Source: Hymenobacter aerophilus DSM 13606
Lineage (GTDB): Bacteria; Bacteroidota; Bacteroidia; Cytophagales; Hymenobacteraceae
Length of the DNA stretch: 64,000 nucleotides
Direction of reading: 5' to 3'
NCBI RefSeq assembly: GCF_000382225.1
Contig: NZ_KB907814.1
Coordinates: 1 to 64,000 of the forward strand
The first letter of the stretch is position 1, and each line of letters opens with the position of its first letter. A program made the position numbers and the translations under genes. Below, piece after piece: positions 35,803-44,383 of the stretch. The notes beneath the pieces are model-generated. The model was given only the letters and a program-made list of their open reading frames with translations. It searched no databases and was not told where the DNA came from.

Positions 35803-36321
35803 TTAGTCACAATCAACGTGAAGTCGGTGTTGGTAACAGTTTACACATTGAAACAAATAGCCAACTAAACTTCCGTCTTTTGTTAAACTACTTTTTATAA
35901 AATCAGGGTCATAGCCATTATTTTCAATATCGTCATTTAATTCTTCCATTAGAGGCTCTATCGTATTTGTGTCAGCATACCCAACAAAAGCACAAGGTTC
36001 GTTACAATGTGTTAGCCAAACTTCTTGTTGCCAACTTGTATAACTTGGCGTTCTTTCACTTGCTTGTAATAAAAGTTCTTTTTCAATATTCTCTGAATTT
36101 TCTATTCCTTCATAATCATTGAACTCTCCCTCGTATTTTTCCGATGCTTTTCCGTCTGCGATGCACCAAGGACAAATATATTCGGGTTCGTCAACGCTAT
36201 AAAATGAACTTGTATATTTGATATGTCTTTTTTCATTGCAGACAGAACAGGTTCCTTCTACATTTTCGAAAATGTCAAGTTCGAATGCGTTAGGACTGTA
36301 TTTAAATTTCGGTAATTCCAT
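35803..36321 (-). CDS. CbrC-family (UPF0167) protein
   Basis: A 172-residue protein that I recognise as CbrC/UPF0167 from its opening MELPKFKYSPNAFELDIFEN and the Cys pairs CSVCNE, CPWC and CVNC. The family opening decides the start at 36321; a longer in-frame start lies 15 codons upstream. Family members are linked with colicin tolerance in E. coli but have no firm biochemical role. The gene is clearly AT-rich against its GC-rich neighbours and uses AT-ending codons, so recent transfer is likely. It probably binds zinc through the Cys pairs. Confidence 0.82.
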   Translation of the reverse strand: MELPKFKYSPNAFELDIFENVEGTCSVCNEKRHIKYTSSFYSVDEPEYICPWCIADGKASEKYEGEFNDYEGIENSENIEKELLLQASERTPSYTSWQQEVWLTHCNEPCAFVGYADTNTIEPLMEELNDDIENNGYDPDFIKSSLTKDGSLVGYLFQCVNCYQHRLHVDCD

Positions 36322-36418
36322 TTTTTCTATTTTTAAGGTCTGTTCGGTTAATATTGCCATCAACATTCCGATTGCCGCGACTGCCTATAGCGTAAACCCG
36401 GCCTCTGTACGCAAGATA

Positions 36419-36573: not shown

Positions 36574-37587
36574 TTAGCTCTGGGGCTTGTTGAGCAGGAA
36601 GCCGATGGTGAAGTTGGCGTCCCAGTCGAAGACGAACTGCTGGCATCCTGACGCCTCCTGCACGGCCTGGTAGATGTTCTGGCCGGCCTTGGACTTGGCG
36701 TTGTCGAACTGGTAGGCCGTGGGGGCTTTGAGGGTGGTGTAGCGCTCCTTGTCCTGGCGCACTTCCTTGGCCATCTCGAAGGGCACGCCCCCCACGATGA
36801 AGCAGGTATTGCGCAGGCCGGCCGGCACCTGGGCCATTTTGGTTTTCACGTCGGCCGCCACGGTGGCGTCGTCGGTGCCGTTCTGGAAGTACTTGGCGCC
36901 GTAGGTTTCCACCGATTTGGGCGCGCCGTTTTCCAGCCACGAGATTTTGGTGTTGCCCGAACCGATGTCCACCACGAAGGCTTTATCGGCGTAGGCGGGG
37001 GGCAGCACCGAGCGCAAAGCCAGCACGCCTTCCTGCTCGGGCGTTACGGTGTTCACCACGTAGCCCAACGATTTGAGGGCGTTGATAATCTTCTGGGTGC
37101 CGCTGGCCTTCTGGGCGCCCGAGCTGACCACGAACTGAATGTCGCGCCCGGCCACGCCGAAGTCGAGCATCTTGGCAATGTAGTTTTTCAGGCCCGCCCG
37201 GATATCGGCATCCGAAGCCATGTTCTCGATGGCCAGGCTGGCCCCAAACTCCGACTTCTCCAGCTTCCAGTTCTTGTTGCCATCGATGCGCACAATAAAC
37301 GAGTTGAAGCCGCTGGCCCCCAGCTCCACCACGCCTTTGAGCTTGCCATTGACGGGCGCGGGCGGCGTGTAGGTGAAGGCAGTCGGCGTCGTAGTGCCCG
37401 TGGTGGCCGGGCCGTTGGGCGCCTGCCCGGCATCGGCCAGGCCGGGTTCGCCGGGCATGGAGGGGCTGGTAGTGGTGGTGGTAGCGGGCAGCAGCTTGTC
37501 GCCCATGAAGTAGCGGAAGCCGAAGTAGGCGGCGGCCAGAATGGCTAGTGTGATGATGAGCCGGCCGGCCAGCGTGAGTCGTTGCAT
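36574..37587 (-). CDS. membrane-anchored Ppx/GppA-like protein
   Basis: A 337-residue protein with one N-terminal membrane helix (about 10-27), a Thr/Pro-rich linker (35-80) and a Ppx/GppA-like actin-fold domain. First motif KGVVELGASGFNSFIV (84-99); middle part VVSSGAQKASGTQKII and TPEQEG as in exopolyphosphatases; second motif VVDIGSGNTK (205-214). Where Ppx has a Glu after GGGST there is Lys214, so catalysis may be lost. Arg3 and Arg9 before the helix suggest an outside (periplasmic) domain, unusual for this ATPase-like fold. It is the third gene of a minus-strand cluster at 36574-39563. Confidence 0.68.
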   Translation of the reverse strand: MQRLTLAGRLIITLAILAAAYFGFRYFMGDKLLPATTTTTSPSMPGEPGLADAGQAPNGPATTGTTTPTAFTYTPPAPVNGKLKGVVELGASGFNSFIVRIDGNKNWKLEKSEFGASLAIENMASDADIRAGLKNYIAKMLDFGVAGRDIQFVVSSGAQKASGTQKIINALKSLGYVVNTVTPEQEGVLALRSVLPPAYADKAFVVDIGSGNTKISWLENGAPKSVETYGAKYFQNGTDDATVAADVKTKMAQVPAGLRNTCFIVGGVPFEMAKEVRQDKERYTTLKAPTAYQFDNAKSKAGQNIYQAVQEASGCQQFVFDWDANFTIGFLLNKPQS

Positions 37588-37625
37588 AGGAGAGGGAGGT
37601 TAGGGATGGAGAGTTGAGCAGGGGG

Positions 37626-37721
37626 TGTAGAGACGCGACCCATCGCGTCTCGGCGTTGAACGGCCAATGCCAGAACGACCAACGTCAGCAACGCCGAGAC
37701 GCGATGGGTCGCGTCTTTACA
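37626..37721. repeat. TGTAG-CTACA palindromic element, copy 2
   Basis: Arms 37626-37658 and 37689-37721 (33 bp, one mismatch) built on AGACGCGACCCATCGCGTCT, with a 30-base loop. The loop read in reverse complement matches the loop of the next copy at about 22 of 30 positions. It lies between two genes of the same cluster. Confidence 0.85.
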
Positions 37722-37728
37722 TCGTTCG

Positions 37729-38757
37729 TTATTCCAGTAGGTTGCGGTAGCCGGCGTCTTTGGCGGGGGGCGGGGTGCCGGGCTGGGCAATGAAGACGGG
37801 GGCGGCCGGGGCGGCGTCGGGGGTTACAAACTTGAACTCGCCCTGGTTGTAGGCCTTCAGCAGGGCCTCGCCTTTGTCGGAGAGGATGCCGTTCTGCACG
37901 TCCACCGAGTTGATAAAGTCCATCGACAGGTCCATGGCGCGCTTCATCTCGCCCAGCTTCTGGCTCATGTCGTCCTGGATGTACTCCATCGACTCGTCGA
38001 AGTAGAACTTCTTGTCGGGGTCGCCCTTGAAGATGCTGACGGCCGTGCGCAGCGCGTTGGAGCTTTCCTTCACCAGCTTGTACTCCACTTCCTTGAGGCG
38101 CACCTTGATTTCGGTTTCCTTGATGATGTAGTCGGCGCTCTGGTTGACCTTTTCCATGAAGGCCAGCACCTGCTGAATGTTGCGCTGCAGCGGCAGCAGC
38201 TTGTTGTTCATCTCCTGGAGGCCCGCCCCCTCGATGGTGGCCAGCGAGGCGGTTTCCTTCATGCCGGGCCGCTCCAGCATGGTACCGGCCTTGTTGGCCT
38301 CGGCAAATTTCTGCTTGATTTCGGCGTTGTTCTCGTTGATTTTCTTGTTCAGTTTCACCAGCTGCCCGGCCAGCGTATCAATCTGGCCCTGCATCTTCCG
38401 GCGCTTCTGCCGCAAATCATCCACGTAGATTTTGAGGATGGCAATGGGGTTGAGCTGCACGACCAGCCCCACGATTTTGCGCATCAGCGTCTTGAACAAA
38501 AAGAACACGGCCGTGCGCACGTCGCGGCTGGTAAGCAGGAACACCACCACGCCCAGCGCTGCCAGCAGCAGCGCCAGATGCAGGGTGTTGGAGGCTACTT
38601 CAATCAGAAACAGCACAATCTGGTTGAAGTAAATCAGGCCCGCGCCCAGCAGGCCCGCCAGCACCACGAGGCCAAAAATACCTTCGGGCCGCGACCAGAA
38701 CGAGCGTTTTTCCACGTCGGTACCGCCACCTAGTTGCGAGAAGTCGGGAGTTGCCAT
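37729..38757 (-). CDS. membrane protein with long coiled coil, unknown function
   Basis: A 342-residue protein with two close membrane helices (about 26-47 and 50-78), a basic loop, then a long helical, charged part (about 110-300) with coiled-coil pattern (KRRKMQGQIDTLAGQLVKLN, KETEIKVRLKEVEYKLVKES) and a Pro-rich tail. I do not recognise a family; the arrangement recalls membrane-bound scaffold or envelope-stress proteins. It is the second gene of the cluster, with palindromic elements on both sides (105-bp and 91-bp gaps). Confidence 0.68.
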   Translation of the reverse strand: MATPDFSQLGGGTDVEKRSFWSRPEGIFGLVVLAGLLGAGLIYFNQIVLFLIEVASNTLHLALLLAALGVVVFLLTSRDVRTAVFFLFKTLMRKIVGLVVQLNPIAILKIYVDDLRQKRRKMQGQIDTLAGQLVKLNKKINENNAEIKQKFAEANKAGTMLERPGMKETASLATIEGAGLQEMNNKLLPLQRNIQQVLAFMEKVNQSADYIIKETEIKVRLKEVEYKLVKESSNALRTAVSIFKGDPDKKFYFDESMEYIQDDMSQKLGEMKRAMDLSMDFINSVDVQNGILSDKGEALLKAYNQGEFKFVTPDAAPAAPVFIAQPGTPPPAKDAGYRNLLE

Positions 38758-38791
38758 AGCGGGAGAGTGTTGGGGGTGAGGTGTTGAACGA

Positions 38792-38885
38792 TGTAGAGAC
38801 GCACTATTTTGCGTCTCGTCGTTGCTGACATTGGTTGTTGTGCTGCTAGCCGTTCAACGACGAGACGCAATTATGCGTCTCTACA
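38792..38885. repeat. TGTAG-CTACA palindromic element, copy 3
   Basis: Arms 38792-38824 and 38855-38885 built on TGTAGAGACGCA and TTGCGTCTCGTCGTTG, with a 30-base loop. The length, ends and loop are shared with the copy at 37626, but the loop is in the opposite orientation. Confidence 0.85.
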
Positions 38886-38891
38886 GCGGTT

Positions 38892-39563
38892 CTACGTCAG
38901 ATGCTGCCTTATACGGGCAATGTCGTCCTGGATTTGCCGGGTGAAGTGCTCGTGGGTGGCTTCGTAGTTGCGGCGGCTTTGGCTGAGCTTGTCGGTTTGC
39001 AGGTCTATCTCGCCGCTGATGGAGGCGAGGCGGGCAGTGTTGGCTTCTATTTTCTGCTGGATTTCGGCCAGCTGCTTGGTCAGGGCCTCGTTGTCGGCCT
39101 GGCGCTGCTGCTGCTCCTGCTGCAGGCCGCCCACGCGCTCGGCAATGGTGGCATCCACGCTCTTGGTGAACCCGGCGCGGTCGTCGTTGAGCACGTTCAG
39201 GTACTGGTTGGCCGTGCTCACGAGCTGGTTCACATCGGCCGAGCCGCCCAGGGCTTTGAAGCTGGCCCAGGCCGCCTGAAACTGCTTGTGCTCACTCAAA
39301 TCCAGGCTGCTCAGGCCCCGCAGCGCGTCGCGGAACTCGAAGTAGTCGGGCCCCGGCAGGTTGTGCTTCACCAGCACATCGGCCAGGTGCTCCGAAAACC
39401 GCAAATCAACCGAGCCGGGCTGCTGGTAAACAGGCGCGGGTGAACTGCCCGCCGCGGTAGCCGGGGCCGCGGCGCCGGCCGCAGGCGCCCCGGCCGGCGC
39501 GGGCGCATCCTTGATGAAGAAGCCGAGGATTTTGTGGCCGAGCGATTTGTCTGGTTCAGGCAT
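38892..39563 (-). CDS. soluble coiled-coil protein, first gene of the module
   Basis: A 223-residue protein: an N-terminal short segment (MPEPDKSLGHKILGFFIKDA), an Ala/Pro-rich linker (18-45), a small helical domain (about 50-120, with SEHLADVLVKHNLPGPDYFE) and a C-terminal coiled coil (about 135-215, with QQEQQQRQADNEALTKQLAE). There is no signal or membrane segment. No family was recognised. It is the first gene of the minus-strand cluster with a possible promoter at 39592-39622. Its coiled coil could meet that of the membrane protein encoded next. Confidence 0.66.
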   Translation of the reverse strand: MPEPDKSLGHKILGFFIKDAPAPAGAPAAGAAAPATAAGSSPAPVYQQPGSVDLRFSEHLADVLVKHNLPGPDYFEFRDALRGLSSLDLSEHKQFQAAWASFKALGGSADVNQLVSTANQYLNVLNDDRAGFTKSVDATIAERVGGLQQEQQQRQADNEALTKQLAEIQQKIEANTARLASISGEIDLQTDKLSQSRRNYEATHEHFTRQIQDDIARIRQHLT

Positions 39564-39721: not shown

Positions 39722-41338
39722 TTAGGCAAAAACTTTATATAAAGATATGGCAAGAGTTAAGAGCAATGCTAATATCATCATTTTTTGTTTTTTGATTTTA
39801 CTCGTTATCTCTAATACTTGTAACTTTAAATCTTCATTTTCTTTATAGAAAGACATAATAGTACTTTCTTTTGACTTGATGCTTTGCCTGAGAATTAATA
39901 TCTCATTATTGAGTTGCTTTAACTGGCTACTCAACTCAATATTTAAAGGCTCAAGAGTATTCAAAGAAGTCCTCATACCCTTTACTATATCTTCAAATTT
40001 TTCTCTATTCATCACTTCAGGGTTTTTTGAGTTGAAGTATTCTTTTATTCTTTCATCAACTTTGATGTCTCTACTATTGATTTTAGTTTTCAACGTAATT
40101 CCTTCGAAAGAACGACATCTACTCAGTGCAACATATGTTTGCCCGGTTGCAAATGCACCGTTACCCATATCAATTACAACTTTATCAAAAGTCTGACCTT
40201 GACTTTTATGTATTGTAACAGCCCAGGCAAGTTTTATTGGGAATTGCGTGAAAGTTCCAATTATACTCTTTTCTATTTTTTCTTCCTCTATATTCCATAC
40301 ATAATCATAATTCTCCCATATTTCTTTTTGAATATCATATATCTGGTTATCTGTATCAATTTTTGCTTTTATTGAATTTTGACTTATTGACACTATCTTT
40401 CCTAAACTGCCGTTAACCCACCTTTTTTCCTTATCATTTTTAATAAACATTATCTGCGAGCCTTCGCACAATTGCAGAAACCTTTCGGCTGGCAGCTTAT
40501 CTGGATTCTGTTCTTTCAGGAATGTTCCTGTTGACAATGCCTGAAATTGATACTGTTCACTAGGTAGCTTTTGAAGTTCCTTTTGATTTGTTTGTCTTAC
40601 AATATCGTTAGTCGTGGCCAGTATTATTTCAAGCCTTTTACTTTCTGATATATAGTTCGGATTATACCTTTGATTTAAAAAGGTCAAATCCTCATATCTA
40701 ACATAATTTTCTCTTATTACATTTAACAACTTTACAAACACTTCATCTTTTTGCCTATAGACTTTTTGTAATTCTATAATATGATATTTTATTTCATTTT
40801 CCAGTGCTTTAGCACTGAAGAAATATGGCGTTCTATAATTTGAGTTTATAATGTTTACCTCTTCAACCTTTCTGTTATCAAGAACCGGGGGTAATTGGAA
40901 TAAATCTCCTATTAGTAGTAATTGTTTTCCTGCGAAGGGAATATTTATTCTCAAATTTCTTCTTAAAGCCAAATCTATAGCATTCATCAAATCGCATCTT
41001 ACCATTGATATCTCATCAATAATAATTAAATCAAGCTTTTCTAATAGCTCCGCTTTCTTTGGCAATATTGATATGTCTTTATCAAAGGGCAGATAAGGGC
41101 GCGGTTCCAACTGAAAAAACGAATGTATAGTTTGTCCCCCAACATTTAGTGCGGCAATTCCAGTTGGTGCAAGAATAATATAATTCTTTTTGGTACATTT
41201 TATAATTTTTTTCAAAAGCGTTGATTTACCTGTACCAGCTTTTCCAGTCAAAAAAATCGATTGGTCGGTATAATTAATTAGATTAATTACATCCTGTGCC
41301 TCTGGATTATCTATATACTCTTCTAGTAATTCCTTCAT
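39722..41338 (-). CDS. PIF1-like DNA helicase with C-terminal coiled coil and membrane anchor
   Basis: A 538-residue SF1B helicase. Walker A is G32KAGTGKST40, followed by APTGIAALNVGGQTIHSFF and the DE box in LIIIDEISMV, as in PIF1/RecD-like proteins. The C-terminal helicase motifs AWAVTIHKSQGQTFDKVVID and TYVALSRCRS are intact. After about residue 440 comes a coiled coil (ELSSQLKQLNNEILILRQSI and onward) and the last 22 residues are a hydrophobic helix (MMILALLLTLAISLYKVF), a tail anchor not usual in PIF1. The gene is strongly AT-rich compared with both sides, so it was probably acquired. Confidence 0.85.
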   Translation of the reverse strand: MKELLEEYIDNPEAQDVINLINYTDQSIFLTGKAGTGKSTLLKKIIKCTKKNYIILAPTGIAALNVGGQTIHSFFQLEPRPYLPFDKDISILPKKAELLEKLDLIIIDEISMVRCDLMNAIDLALRRNLRINIPFAGKQLLLIGDLFQLPPVLDNRKVEEVNIINSNYRTPYFFSAKALENEIKYHIIELQKVYRQKDEVFVKLLNVIRENYVRYEDLTFLNQRYNPNYISESKRLEIILATTNDIVRQTNQKELQKLPSEQYQFQALSTGTFLKEQNPDKLPAERFLQLCEGSQIMFIKNDKEKRWVNGSLGKIVSISQNSIKAKIDTDNQIYDIQKEIWENYDYVWNIEEEKIEKSIIGTFTQFPIKLAWAVTIHKSQGQTFDKVVIDMGNGAFATGQTYVALSRCRSFEGITLKTKINSRDIKVDERIKEYFNSKNPEVMNREKFEDIVKGMRTSLNTLEPLNIELSSQLKQLNNEILILRQSIKSKESTIMSFYKENEDLKLQVLEITSKIKKQKMMILALLLTLAISLYKVFA

Positions 41339-41515: not shown

Positions 41516-44383
41516 ATGGCCGACAATTCCGCACTGCAACTCGCCGCCCCCGCGGCCGACCCGATTGACCAGCTCGACCCGCGCGAGTTCATCCTGATTA
41601 AGAACGCGCGGGTTCATAACCTTAAAAACCTGAGCGTGGCCCTGCCGCGCAACCAGTTCATCGTCGTCACGGGCTTGTCGGGCTCGGGCAAGAGCAGCCT
41701 AGCCTTCGATACACTGTACGCCGAGGGGCAGCGCATGTACGTGGAGAGCCTGAGCTCCTACGCCCGGCAGTTTCTGGGCCGCATGGATAAGCCCGACGTG
41801 GACTACATCCGGGGCATTTCGCCGGCCATTGCCATCGAGCAGAAGGTGAGCATCAAGAACAACCGCTCTACCGTCGGCACCAGCACCGAAATCTACGATT
41901 ACCTTAAGCTGCTGTTTGCGCGGGTGGGCCGCACCTACTCGCCCGTCAGCGGCGAGCTGGTGAAGAAGGACAACGTGGCCGACGTGGTGGACGACCTCAT
42001 GCGCCTGCCCGCCGATACGCGGGTAATGCTGCTGGCTCCGCTGTTGCCATCTGATGATGGACGCCCCATGCGCAAGGAGCTGGATTTGCTGCTCCAGAAA
42101 GGCTACAGCCGGGTGGTAGTAAACGGCGACACGGCCTTCATCGAAGACCTGCTCGCCGAAGGCCAGCCCGAGCTTCAGGGAGAGATATTCATCATGATTG
42201 ACCGCGCCGTTATTATCCCCGGCAATGAGGACCTGGCTTTCCGTCTGGCCGATTCGGTGCAAACGGCTTTTTTCGAGGGTCACGGCAGCCTGATTGCTAA
42301 CTGCCAACTGCCGGCGGCCACTGAAGGCGAGCAGCCGCAACTCATTGAAAAGACTTTCTCGGATAAATTCGAGCTGGATGGGCTGGCGTTTGAGGAGCCG
42401 AGCGTGAACTTCTTCTCCTTCAACAACCCCTACGGCGCCTGCCAGACCTGCGAGGGGTTTGGGTCGGTGCTGGGGATTGACGAGGATTTGGTGATTCCCG
42501 ACAAGAGCCTGACGGTGTACGAGGGAGCCATTGCACCCTGGCGCACCGACAAGCAGAGCGAGTGGCTCAAGCCGCTCATCAAGAACGGCATCCGCTTCGA
42601 TTTCCCGATTCATCGGCCTTACAACGAGCTGAGCGAGGCTGAGCGCGCCGTGCTCTGGACGGGCAACAAGTACTTCGACGGGCTGGACGACTACTTTAAG
42701 TGGGTGAGCACCCAGACCCATAAAATCCAGTACCGGGTGCTGCAAAGCCGCTACCGGGGCCGCACCACCTGCCCCGACTGCCGTGGCAGCCGCCTGCGCA
42801 AGGATGCCCAGTACGTCAAAATCGAGGGCCGGAGCATCACCGATTTGGTGCTGCTGCCGGTGAGCGAGGCGCTGACCTTCTTCGAGGGCCTGAACCTGCC
42901 CGAGCACGAGGCCAAGGTGGCCGAGCGGCTGGTGACGGAAATCACGAACCGGCTGGGCTACCTCGACCGGGTGGGCCTGGGCTACCTCACGCTTAACCGC
43001 CTCAGCAGCACGCTGAGTGGCGGCGAGAGCCAGCGCATTTCGCTGGCCACTTCGCTGGGTTCGGCGCTGGTGGGCTCGATGTATATTCTCGATGAGCCCT
43101 CGATTGGCCTGCACCCCAAGGATGCCGAGCAGCTGATTGGCGTGCTGCGCTCGTTGCAGCAGCTGGGCAACACCGTGATTGTGGTGGAGCACGAGGACAA
43201 GATGATGGAGCAGGCCGACCAGATTATCGACATCGGCCCCGAGGCCGGCAGCGGCGGCGGCATCCTGCAGTTCCAGGGCACCTACGCCGAAGTGCTGGCC
43301 TCCGACACCTACACCGGGCAGTACCTGAGTGGCCGCCGCGAAGTGCCCGTGCCCAAGCACCGCCGCCCCTGGCGCAACGCCCTGGAGCTGACGGGGGCCC
43401 GCGAGAACAACCTGAAGAACGTGAGCGTGAAGTTTCCGCTCAACGTGATGACGGTGGTCACGGGCGTGTCGGGTTCGGGCAAAAGCACGCTCGTCAAACG
43501 CATACTGGCCCCGGCGCTGCTCAAGCAGCTTGGCGGCGGCGCGGGCGAAAGCACCGGCAAGTTCGACCGCCTCACCGGGGCCGCCGGGCAGGTAACGCAC
43601 GTCGAGTTCGTCGACCAGAACCCGATTGGCAAGAGCAGCCGCTCGAACCCGGTTACCTACGTGAAGGCCTACGACGCCATCCGCAGCCTGTTCGCCGACC
43701 AGCCGCTGGCCAAGGCCCGCGGGTTCAAGCCTTCGCACTTCAGCTTCAATGTAGAAGGGGGGCGCTGCGAGGTGTGCCAGGGCGAGGGCCAGGTGAAAAT
43801 CGAAATGCAGTTTATGGCCGACATCTTCCTGACCTGCGAGGCCTGCGAGGGCCGCAAGTTCAAGCAGGACGTGCTGGATGTGCAGTACCAGGGCCTGAGC
43901 ATCAACGACGTGCTGGAGCTGACCATCGAAGACAGCCTGGACTTCTTCAAGGACCAGCCCAAAATCATTGAGCGCCTCAAGCCGCTGGACGACGTGGGCC
44001 TGGGGTATATCCGGCTGGGACAGTCGGCCAATACGCTGAGCGGCGGCGAGGCCCAGCGCGTGAAGCTGGCCTCATTCCTGACCAAGGGCAACACGCTGCA
44101 GAACGATAAAATCCTGTTCATCTTCGACGAGCCCAGCACCGGCCTACACTTCCACGATATCAACAAGCTCATGCTGGCCCTCAACGCGCTGGTCGAGCAG
44201 GGCAACTCAGTGCTCATCATCGAGCACAACATGGACATCATCAAGTGCGCCGACTGGCTCATCGACCTCGGCCCCGAGGGCGGCCTGAACGGCGGCCACC
44301 TGCTGTTCGAGGGCACACCCGAGCAGTTTGTCAAGCTCAAGGACACCAACTCCACGGCGCGGTTCCTGGCCGAGAAGCTTTAA
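41516..44383 (+). CDS. uvrA: excinuclease ABC subunit A
   Basis: A 955-residue UvrA, full length for the family. It has two ABC ATPase modules: the first Walker A is G53LSGSGKSS61 and the second is GVSGSGKSTLVK at about 655. Zinc-binding Cys motifs are CQTCEGFG, CPDCRGSR and CEVCQGEG with CEACEGRK; signatures are LSGGESQRISLATSLGS and LSGGEAQRVKLASFL. It finds bulky DNA lesions together with UvrB in nucleotide excision repair. The stop codon is inside the first arm of a palindromic repeat. Confidence 0.98.
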   Translation: MADNSALQLAAPAADPIDQLDPREFILIKNARVHNLKNLSVALPRNQFIVVTGLSGSGKSSLAFDTLYAEGQRMYVESLSSYARQFLGRMDKPDVDYIRGISPAIAIEQKVSIKNNRSTVGTSTEIYDYLKLLFARVGRTYSPVSGELVKKDNVADVVDDLMRLPADTRVMLLAPLLPSDDGRPMRKELDLLLQKGYSRVVVNGDTAFIEDLLAEGQPELQGEIFIMIDRAVIIPGNEDLAFRLADSVQTAFFEGHGSLIANCQLPAATEGEQPQLIEKTFSDKFELDGLAFEEPSVNFFSFNNPYGACQTCEGFGSVLGIDEDLVIPDKSLTVYEGAIAPWRTDKQSEWLKPLIKNGIRFDFPIHRPYNELSEAERAVLWTGNKYFDGLDDYFKWVSTQTHKIQYRVLQSRYRGRTTCPDCRGSRLRKDAQYVKIEGRSITDLVLLPVSEALTFFEGLNLPEHEAKVAERLVTEITNRLGYLDRVGLGYLTLNRLSSTLSGGESQRISLATSLGSALVGSMYILDEPSIGLHPKDAEQLIGVLRSLQQLGNTVIVVEHEDKMMEQADQIIDIGPEAGSGGGILQFQGTYAEVLASDTYTGQYLSGRREVPVPKHRRPWRNALELTGARENNLKNVSVKFPLNVMTVVTGVSGSGKSTLVKRILAPALLKQLGGGAGESTGKFDRLTGAAGQVTHVEFVDQNPIGKSSRSNPVTYVKAYDAIRSLFADQPLAKARGFKPSHFSFNVEGGRCEVCQGEGQVKIEMQFMADIFLTCEACEGRKFKQDVLDVQYQGLSINDVLELTIEDSLDFFKDQPKIIERLKPLDDVGLGYIRLGQSANTLSGGEAQRVKLASFLTKGNTLQNDKILFIFDEPSTGLHFHDINKLMLALNALVEQGNSVLIIEHNMDIIKCADWLIDLGPEGGLNGGHLLFEGTPEQFVKLKDTNSTARFLAEKL

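Follow-up and report, generated by a model that had tools for sequence, protein, structure and literature searches.

The 64,000-nucleotide stretch of Hymenobacter aerophilus DSM 13606 considered here (contig NZ_KB907814.1, positions 1 to 64,000; hereafter the window) carries on its minus strand a conserved three-gene operon that joins a probable membrane-integral relative of PspA/Vipp1 to a membrane-anchored protein of the Ppx/GppA fold. An initial annotation, made from the DNA letters alone, had placed three minus-strand genes at this locus, and open reading frames of 223, 342 and 337 amino acids were indeed found there: g1 (38892..39563), encoding a soluble protein of 223 amino acids with a short amphipathic helix at its N-terminus, then a linker rich in Pro and Ala and a coiled coil at the C-terminus; g2 (37729..38757), encoding a membrane-anchored PspA/IM30-like protein of 342 amino acids; and g3 (36574..37587), encoding the membrane-anchored Ppx/GppA-fold protein of 337 amino acids. 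The chances are about even, in our estimation, that the product of the operon is an inner-membrane complex for envelope stress or membrane remodeling, and the arrangement, in which an extracytoplasmic Ppx-fold protein is present but a transporter is not, is probably a previously undescribed form of PspA/ESCRT-III-type membrane module. The observations underlying this reading are the conservation of the operon, the Ppx fold of g3, the PspA relationship of the g2 homologues, an anchor common to g3 and proteins of related operons, and the existence of exported g3 relatives.

A survey of 120 genomes of the family detected relatives of g3 in 28, of g2 in 41 and of g1 in 30; in eight genomes, that of the window among them, the three lie side by side. 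Scanning 84,980 species genomes yielded 369 stretches with a confirmed g3 relative, and gene order was counted in the best 80 of these, all from Cytophagales (Hymenobacter, Spirosoma, Dyadobacter, Arcicella, Emticicia, Fibrella and others; one record bears the label Cellulophaga, its gene order being that of the Flectobacillus records). The three genes were adjacent, in the same order and strand and within 300 bp or less, at 52 of the 80 loci; the order was kept but interrupted at five, g2-g3 was seen at two, and g3 stood alone in its stretch at 21. Additionally, g2 was encoded in 15 of the 16 genomes searched for it, most of which were picked because g3 was alone or apart from g2. Given the intact order at most loci and the presence of g2 in nearly all of these genomes, the homologues are not scattered without linkage, and the co-occurrence check proposed in the initial annotation came out in favor of a genuine, conserved operon whose linkage is far more than chance would give. 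Plasmid searches returned no g2, and g3-domain relatives on two Hymenobacter plasmids only. One locus (L058, G114:C11:95000-108000) holds an apparent remnant of a second g1/g3-type locus, a decaying paralogous copy with stop codons in its g1 homologue.

The g2 protein had been described as having two membrane helices and a long coiled coil; two N-terminal hydrophobic segments followed by long helices were borne out, but the generic coiled-coil label missed a relationship to PspA. Residues 26-76 (38530..38682, minus strand) contain two predicted membrane-spanning segments according to sequence and helix prediction, and residues 81-285 (37903..38517, minus strand) make up a PspA/Vipp1-like helical region, with an amphipathic helix, an N/DP motif at 103-104 and a hairpin, which was delimited by profile matches of the homologues and by structural alignment with VIA-align. 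The Pfam profile PspA_IM30 (PF04012) was matched by 10 of 36 g2 homologues (best E 4.1e-8); every match opens at the DP/NP motif, profile position 23, and the longest reaches position 198 of 220. When the regions following the membrane segments were isolated, PF04012 was the top match for three of four (5.8e-8, 3.3e-4 and 8.5e-4); for the four reversed sequences it never was. In a whole-genome scan with PF04012, g2 paralogues scored 27.8-40.1 bits, three of them (40.1, 38.8 and 35.8) above the cut-off of 33.9; an unrelated long coiled-coil reading frame also reached 31.5 bits, so scores near 30 carry little weight alone. Residues 81-240 of the g2 structure model (predicted local distance difference test, pLDDT, 66) align to Vipp1 2-157, and residues 102-225 to PspA 20-142 (VIA-align, Z ~10.5), in the same register as in the profile matches, and a Foldseek search with the model returned Vipp1 chains at probability 1.00. 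XpaC and TelA were also considered for g2, and neither was among the Pfam matches listed. Common descent of the helical region with PspA/Vipp1 is therefore held to be highly likely, and g2 is probably a membrane-integral PspA/Vipp1-like protein of the ESCRT-III superfamily to which two membrane helices have been added.

For g1, the soluble coiled-coil protein that had been anticipated was recovered, with the coiled coil at the C-terminus. Its N-terminal amphipathic helix (SLGHKILGFFIKD; 39507..39545, minus strand) was located by helical moment over the homologues, the mean best moment being 0.47 across 46 homologues vs 0.37 (standard deviation 0.10) in shuffled sequences; the best amphipathic moment of the PspA encoded in the same genome is 0.55. 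The linker between this helix and the coiled coil is variable. The helix appears to be of the same sort as the N-terminal helix with which PspA binds membranes and may act similarly. A Pfam search of the homologues gave no reliable relative for g1: its matches (among them ATG14 and, at 1.9e-6 and in 21 of 39 members, Mod(r)/Vps37) were many, mixed and typical of coiled coils and were set aside, and g1 as a PspA relative was rejected because hhalign against PspA did no better than the reversed control. Standard library scans of the g1 and g2 proteins likewise produced mixed coiled-coil matches and nothing beyond them.

The single membrane helix and the Ppx/GppA-like domain assigned to g3 by the initial annotation were both upheld: the hydrophobic helix is N-terminal, and the domain is backed by profile and structure matches. 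The window protein itself falls below the cut-off of 27 for Pfam PF02541 (Ppx-GppA; E 5.6e-4, 19.9 bits), and a lipoprotein relative and a signal-peptide relative pass it with 29.3 and 38.5 bits, respectively. A profile built from 49 g3 homologues matches the Aquifex aeolicus Ppx structure (E 2.8e-7), and the AlphaFold model of g3 (pLDDT 82) aligns over 248 residues to Helicobacter pylori PPX/GppA (Z 23.6), its next matches being secreted NTPDases of Legionella and mammals (Z up to 18.5). The g3 protein has the two-lobed Ppx actin-like fold, and the domain spans residues 80-337 (36577..37350, minus strand); the corresponding domain of H. actinosclerus is 97% identical. The replacement by Lys of the Glu that follows GGGST, pointed out previously, also proved correct: in the g3 motif GSGNTK, Lys214 (36946..36948, minus strand) aligns with the Glu of the GGGSTE motif of Ppx/GppA enzymes, and 48 of the 49 homologues have Lys there. 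Glu186 and Asp207 are invariant in the homologue alignment. Together with Lys214, these residues are taken to correspond to Glu119, Asp141 and Glu148 of A. aeolicus Ppx, with which the spacing in the alignment agrees. The near-universal Lys at the Glu148 position suggests that catalytic activity has been lost or altered.

The Ppx-like domain of the g3 family is very probably extracytoplasmic. It is preceded by four kinds of N-terminus, namely a membrane helix, a Sec signal peptide with DUF6799, a lipobox (L172 and L173, from low-GC genomes of another Bacteroidia family) or a plain signal peptide (L176 and L177), and the relatives with a signal peptide or lipobox place the domain outside the cytoplasm. 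Further support comes from the N-terminal anchor of g3 (residues 6-28; 37504..37572, minus strand), which an anchor-profile search found to be common to g3 and to fusions of a solute-binding protein (SBP) with OmpA encoded in related operons: with a profile of the first 30 g3 residues alone, SBP-OmpA proteins were the top 14 non-g3 matches among 2,205 proteins (best E 3.9e-5). These fusions necessarily face the periplasm, and their g3-type anchor thus argues for the same orientation of g3; that two otherwise unrelated proteins have this anchor in common also suggests a common membrane partner, most simply g2. An argument from disulfides was dropped: both cysteines are lost together in L048-L050, but only one of them is lost in L134, L165 and L173. 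The initial annotation had called this location odd for a nucleotide-using fold, an objection weakened by the ecto-NTPDases (Legionella NTPDase1, CD39), which have the same fold and work outside the cytoplasm. The NTPDase-like fold, the invariant residues at the Glu119 and Asp141 positions and the extracytoplasmic domain would also suit an active periplasmic phosphohydrolase, NTPDase-like or a polyphosphatase, in which case the operon would be a phosphate-salvage or extracellular-nucleotide device with g1 and g2 merely organizing g3 in the membrane. We regard this as unlikely, given the Lys at the Glu148 position and the fact that no phosphate-uptake genes were recognized beside the operon among the loci read.

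Other members of the g3 family occur in settings of their own. The paralogue with signal peptide, DUF6799 and Ppx-like domain (L044:3341-4585, L045:3797-5065, L046:3093-4337 and L047:2104-3570) adjoins a sodium:dicarboxylate symporter gene within a conserved ~12-kb cluster, and in L172 (7385-8341 and 13115-14023) and L173 two lipoprotein Ppx-like copies lie ~5 kb apart.

Beyond the three-gene arrangement, homologues of g1 and g2 were found ahead of genes for SBP-OmpA and for the permease and ATPase of an ATP-binding cassette (ABC) transporter. Such operons span three distant families: they occur in Hymenobacter (L051, L190, L224), at L187 in a different Bacteroidia family and at L215-L217 in genomes of Flavobacterium type (genus inferred). 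In the Flavobacterium-type operons an AAA+ ATPase (AAA_lid_6) follows the ABC ATPase, and the g2 homologue is supported by hhalign at 95.7%; two of these operons (L216 and L217) apparently adjoin ATP synthase genes. Two further Hymenobacter loci (L105 and L109) have the order g1-g2-SBP/OmpA-permease-ATPase-g3, and a third (L106) has the SBP/OmpA-permease-ATPase-g3 part of it. Ravi et al. 2024 (PMC11237479) described PspA and Snf7 homologues that have a transmembrane segment and whose genes share operons with those for AAA+, ABC ATPase, permease and PBPB-OmpA proteins, and proposed membrane remodeling tied to transport for them; the ABC operons with g1-g2 homologues look like members of this published PspA/Snf7-ABC-OmpA theme. 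The window operon is without the ABC ATPase/permease/PBPB-OmpA set, which is present in L105, L187, L190 and L215-L217. The existence of such operons, the three Hymenobacter loci at which g3 ends one, and the anchor common to g3 and SBP-OmpA could indicate a transport accessory, in which g1-g2 would give an ABC importer or exporter its membrane platform and g3 would replace or supplement SBP-OmpA as the periplasmic subunit, but this appears improbable because nothing in the window's genome matches the SBP part of SBP-OmpA and transporter genes of this kind are lacking near most g1-g2-g3 operons. The plasmid search for SBP-OmpA was swamped by generic OmpA domains.

An envelope-stress role, as the initial annotation had suggested among other possibilities, is the best reading of the operon because g2 is related to PspA/IM30. 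In the mechanism that we propose, g2 would serve as a PspA/Vipp1-like scaffold made membrane-integral by its two N-terminal helices and would probably polymerize at the cytoplasmic face, with g1 as a peripheral partner contributing its amphipathic helix and coiled coil. The g3 protein would sit in the inner membrane by its single helix, present its Ppx/GppA-fold domain to the periplasm and most likely bind a phosphorylated or anionic periplasmic ligand with no or slow turnover, the second catalytic Glu being replaced by Lys. Its anchor would dock on g2, through which the state of g3 could be passed to the scaffold. In the other operons, SBP-OmpA with its g3-type anchor would fill the place of g3 and tie the scaffold to the ABC transporter and to peptidoglycan. 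A broader generalization, which we offer tentatively and hold to be possible but doubtful, is that of an integral ESCRT-III-like protein whose periplasmic heads are exchangeable, being either an inactive Ppx/GppA sensor or a solute-binding OmpA protein, and use a common docking helix, an arrangement by which periplasmic events would directly control remodeling on the cytoplasmic side.

Several results weigh against this proposal. The window g2 itself gives no PF04012 match, the link to PspA running through homologues of 30-35% identity, and hhalign of g2 against a narrow Hymenobacteraceae PspA set did not outperform reversed or shuffled controls, probably because of that narrowness. The g2 model has a pLDDT of only 66, its Foldseek E-values are only ~0.01, and BAR domains match it at Z 12.1 vs 10.5 for Vipp1, so that the fold comparison does not settle the relationship by itself. 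The net charge flanking the g3 helix is uninformative (mean +1.43 before and +1.41 after it in the 94 family members classed as anchored), and thus the charge argument by which the initial annotation had placed the domain outside the cytoplasm did not hold, although its conclusion stands on the exported relatives and the anchor. Additionally, g3 and g1 are adjacent without g2 at loci of the TerY-P type: in three genomes of related genera (L048-L050), g3-g1 comes directly after genes for vWA, PP2C and a kinase whose C-terminal segment is Cys-rich, and the sole genome among the 16 in which no g2 was found (G027) has this arrangement. These three genes are the make-up of the TerY-P triad as defined in PMC11090510, where such triads are linked to tellurite resistance and defense. 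The module might accordingly be read as the periplasmic and membrane arm of a Ter/TerY-P type system against chemical stress or phage, under phosphorylation control by the vWA/PP2C/kinase triad. This has a small probability in our judgment, as triad genes are as a rule not beside the operon in Hymenobacter, Spirosoma and Dyadobacter and are absent beside that of the window; as the PADLOC models gave no match for g3 and only weak matches for g1 and g2, in coiled-coil parts of LmuB, DndD and similar proteins; and as the surroundings of the operon are stable and apparently vertically inherited in Dyadobacter and Spirosoma, unlike those of a defense island.

If the envelope-stress or membrane-remodeling reading is true, the operon would provide a concrete route from the periplasm to membrane remodeling, bearing on how signals reach PspA/Vipp1/ESCRT-III-like proteins in bacteria without the PspBC partners of E. 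coli. The operon is widespread in Cytophagales and would add an extracytoplasmic, probably non-catalytic branch to the Ppx/GppA family, and three otherwise unannotated families gain a hypothesis.

The spacers and surroundings of the operon were also considered. Both intergenic gaps hold a palindromic element, a hairpin of ~100 bp, in the g2-g3 gap (37626..37721, minus strand) and in the g1-g2 gap (38789..38888, minus strand), as had been noted initially; the elements do not belong to the module. Their half-site, TGTAGAGACGC-N8-GCGTCTC, has 43 matches in the 4.25 Mb genome vs 0 for a control pattern, and hardly any orthologous operon has the elements in its gaps, which rules them out as regulatory parts and marks them as dispersed genomic repeats. 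By the pattern used, the window has four half-sites, all inside the two gaps; over the genome half-sites often form inverted pairs ~70 bp apart. The probable promoter that had been assigned upstream of g1 was not recovered, as two simple pattern scans before g1, one of the sigma-70 type and one with the Bacteroidota-type TTTG/TANNTTTG pattern, gave no site. The immediate neighbors of the operon, a UPF0167/CbrC-like gene (35803-36366) and a PIF1/RecD-like helicase gene (39722-41338), have a third-position GC of ~0.28 vs 0.85 in the surrounding genes and look like recent cargo flanking an old operon. A divergent UvrA-like gene (41516-44383) lies just upstream of the operon, and because this large gene family also borders the operon at several other Hymenobacter loci, the locus appears stable.

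Among known systems, the module resembles the PspA/Snf7-AAA+-ABC-PBPB/OmpA operons (PMC11237479): g1-g2 homologues precede SBP-OmpA, permease and ATPase genes in the same manner, with an AAA+ ATPase as well in the Flavobacterium-type operons, whereas the window operon has a Ppx/GppA-fold protein in place of the transporter. The main text of that paper makes no mention of a Ppx or exopolyphosphatase partner, and no literature treating PspA together with Hymenobacter was found in the library searched. Relative to the PspA/IM30 (Vipp1) family, g2 homologues match the profile from the N/DP motif onward, and the predicted helix order and register of g2, with an amphipathic helix ahead of the hairpin, appear to agree; g2 differs in its two extra N-terminal membrane helices and in a very divergent sequence, the window g2 being below threshold. 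Relative to the Ppx/GppA exopolyphosphatases (PF02541), g3 retains the fold and the majority of the motifs, among them the invariant Glu and Asp, but it is membrane-anchored, predicted to be extracytoplasmic and without the C-terminal domains, with the Asp of the first motif changed to Glu and the Glu of GGGSTE to Lys. The ecto-NTPDases of the GDA1-CD39 group have the superfamily fold of g3 and work outside the cytoplasm, whereas in sequence g3 is closer to Ppx. Finally, the TerY-P phosphorylation triad is met ahead of g3-g1 in some Hymenobacteraceae, unlike the surroundings of the window operon, from which it is missing.

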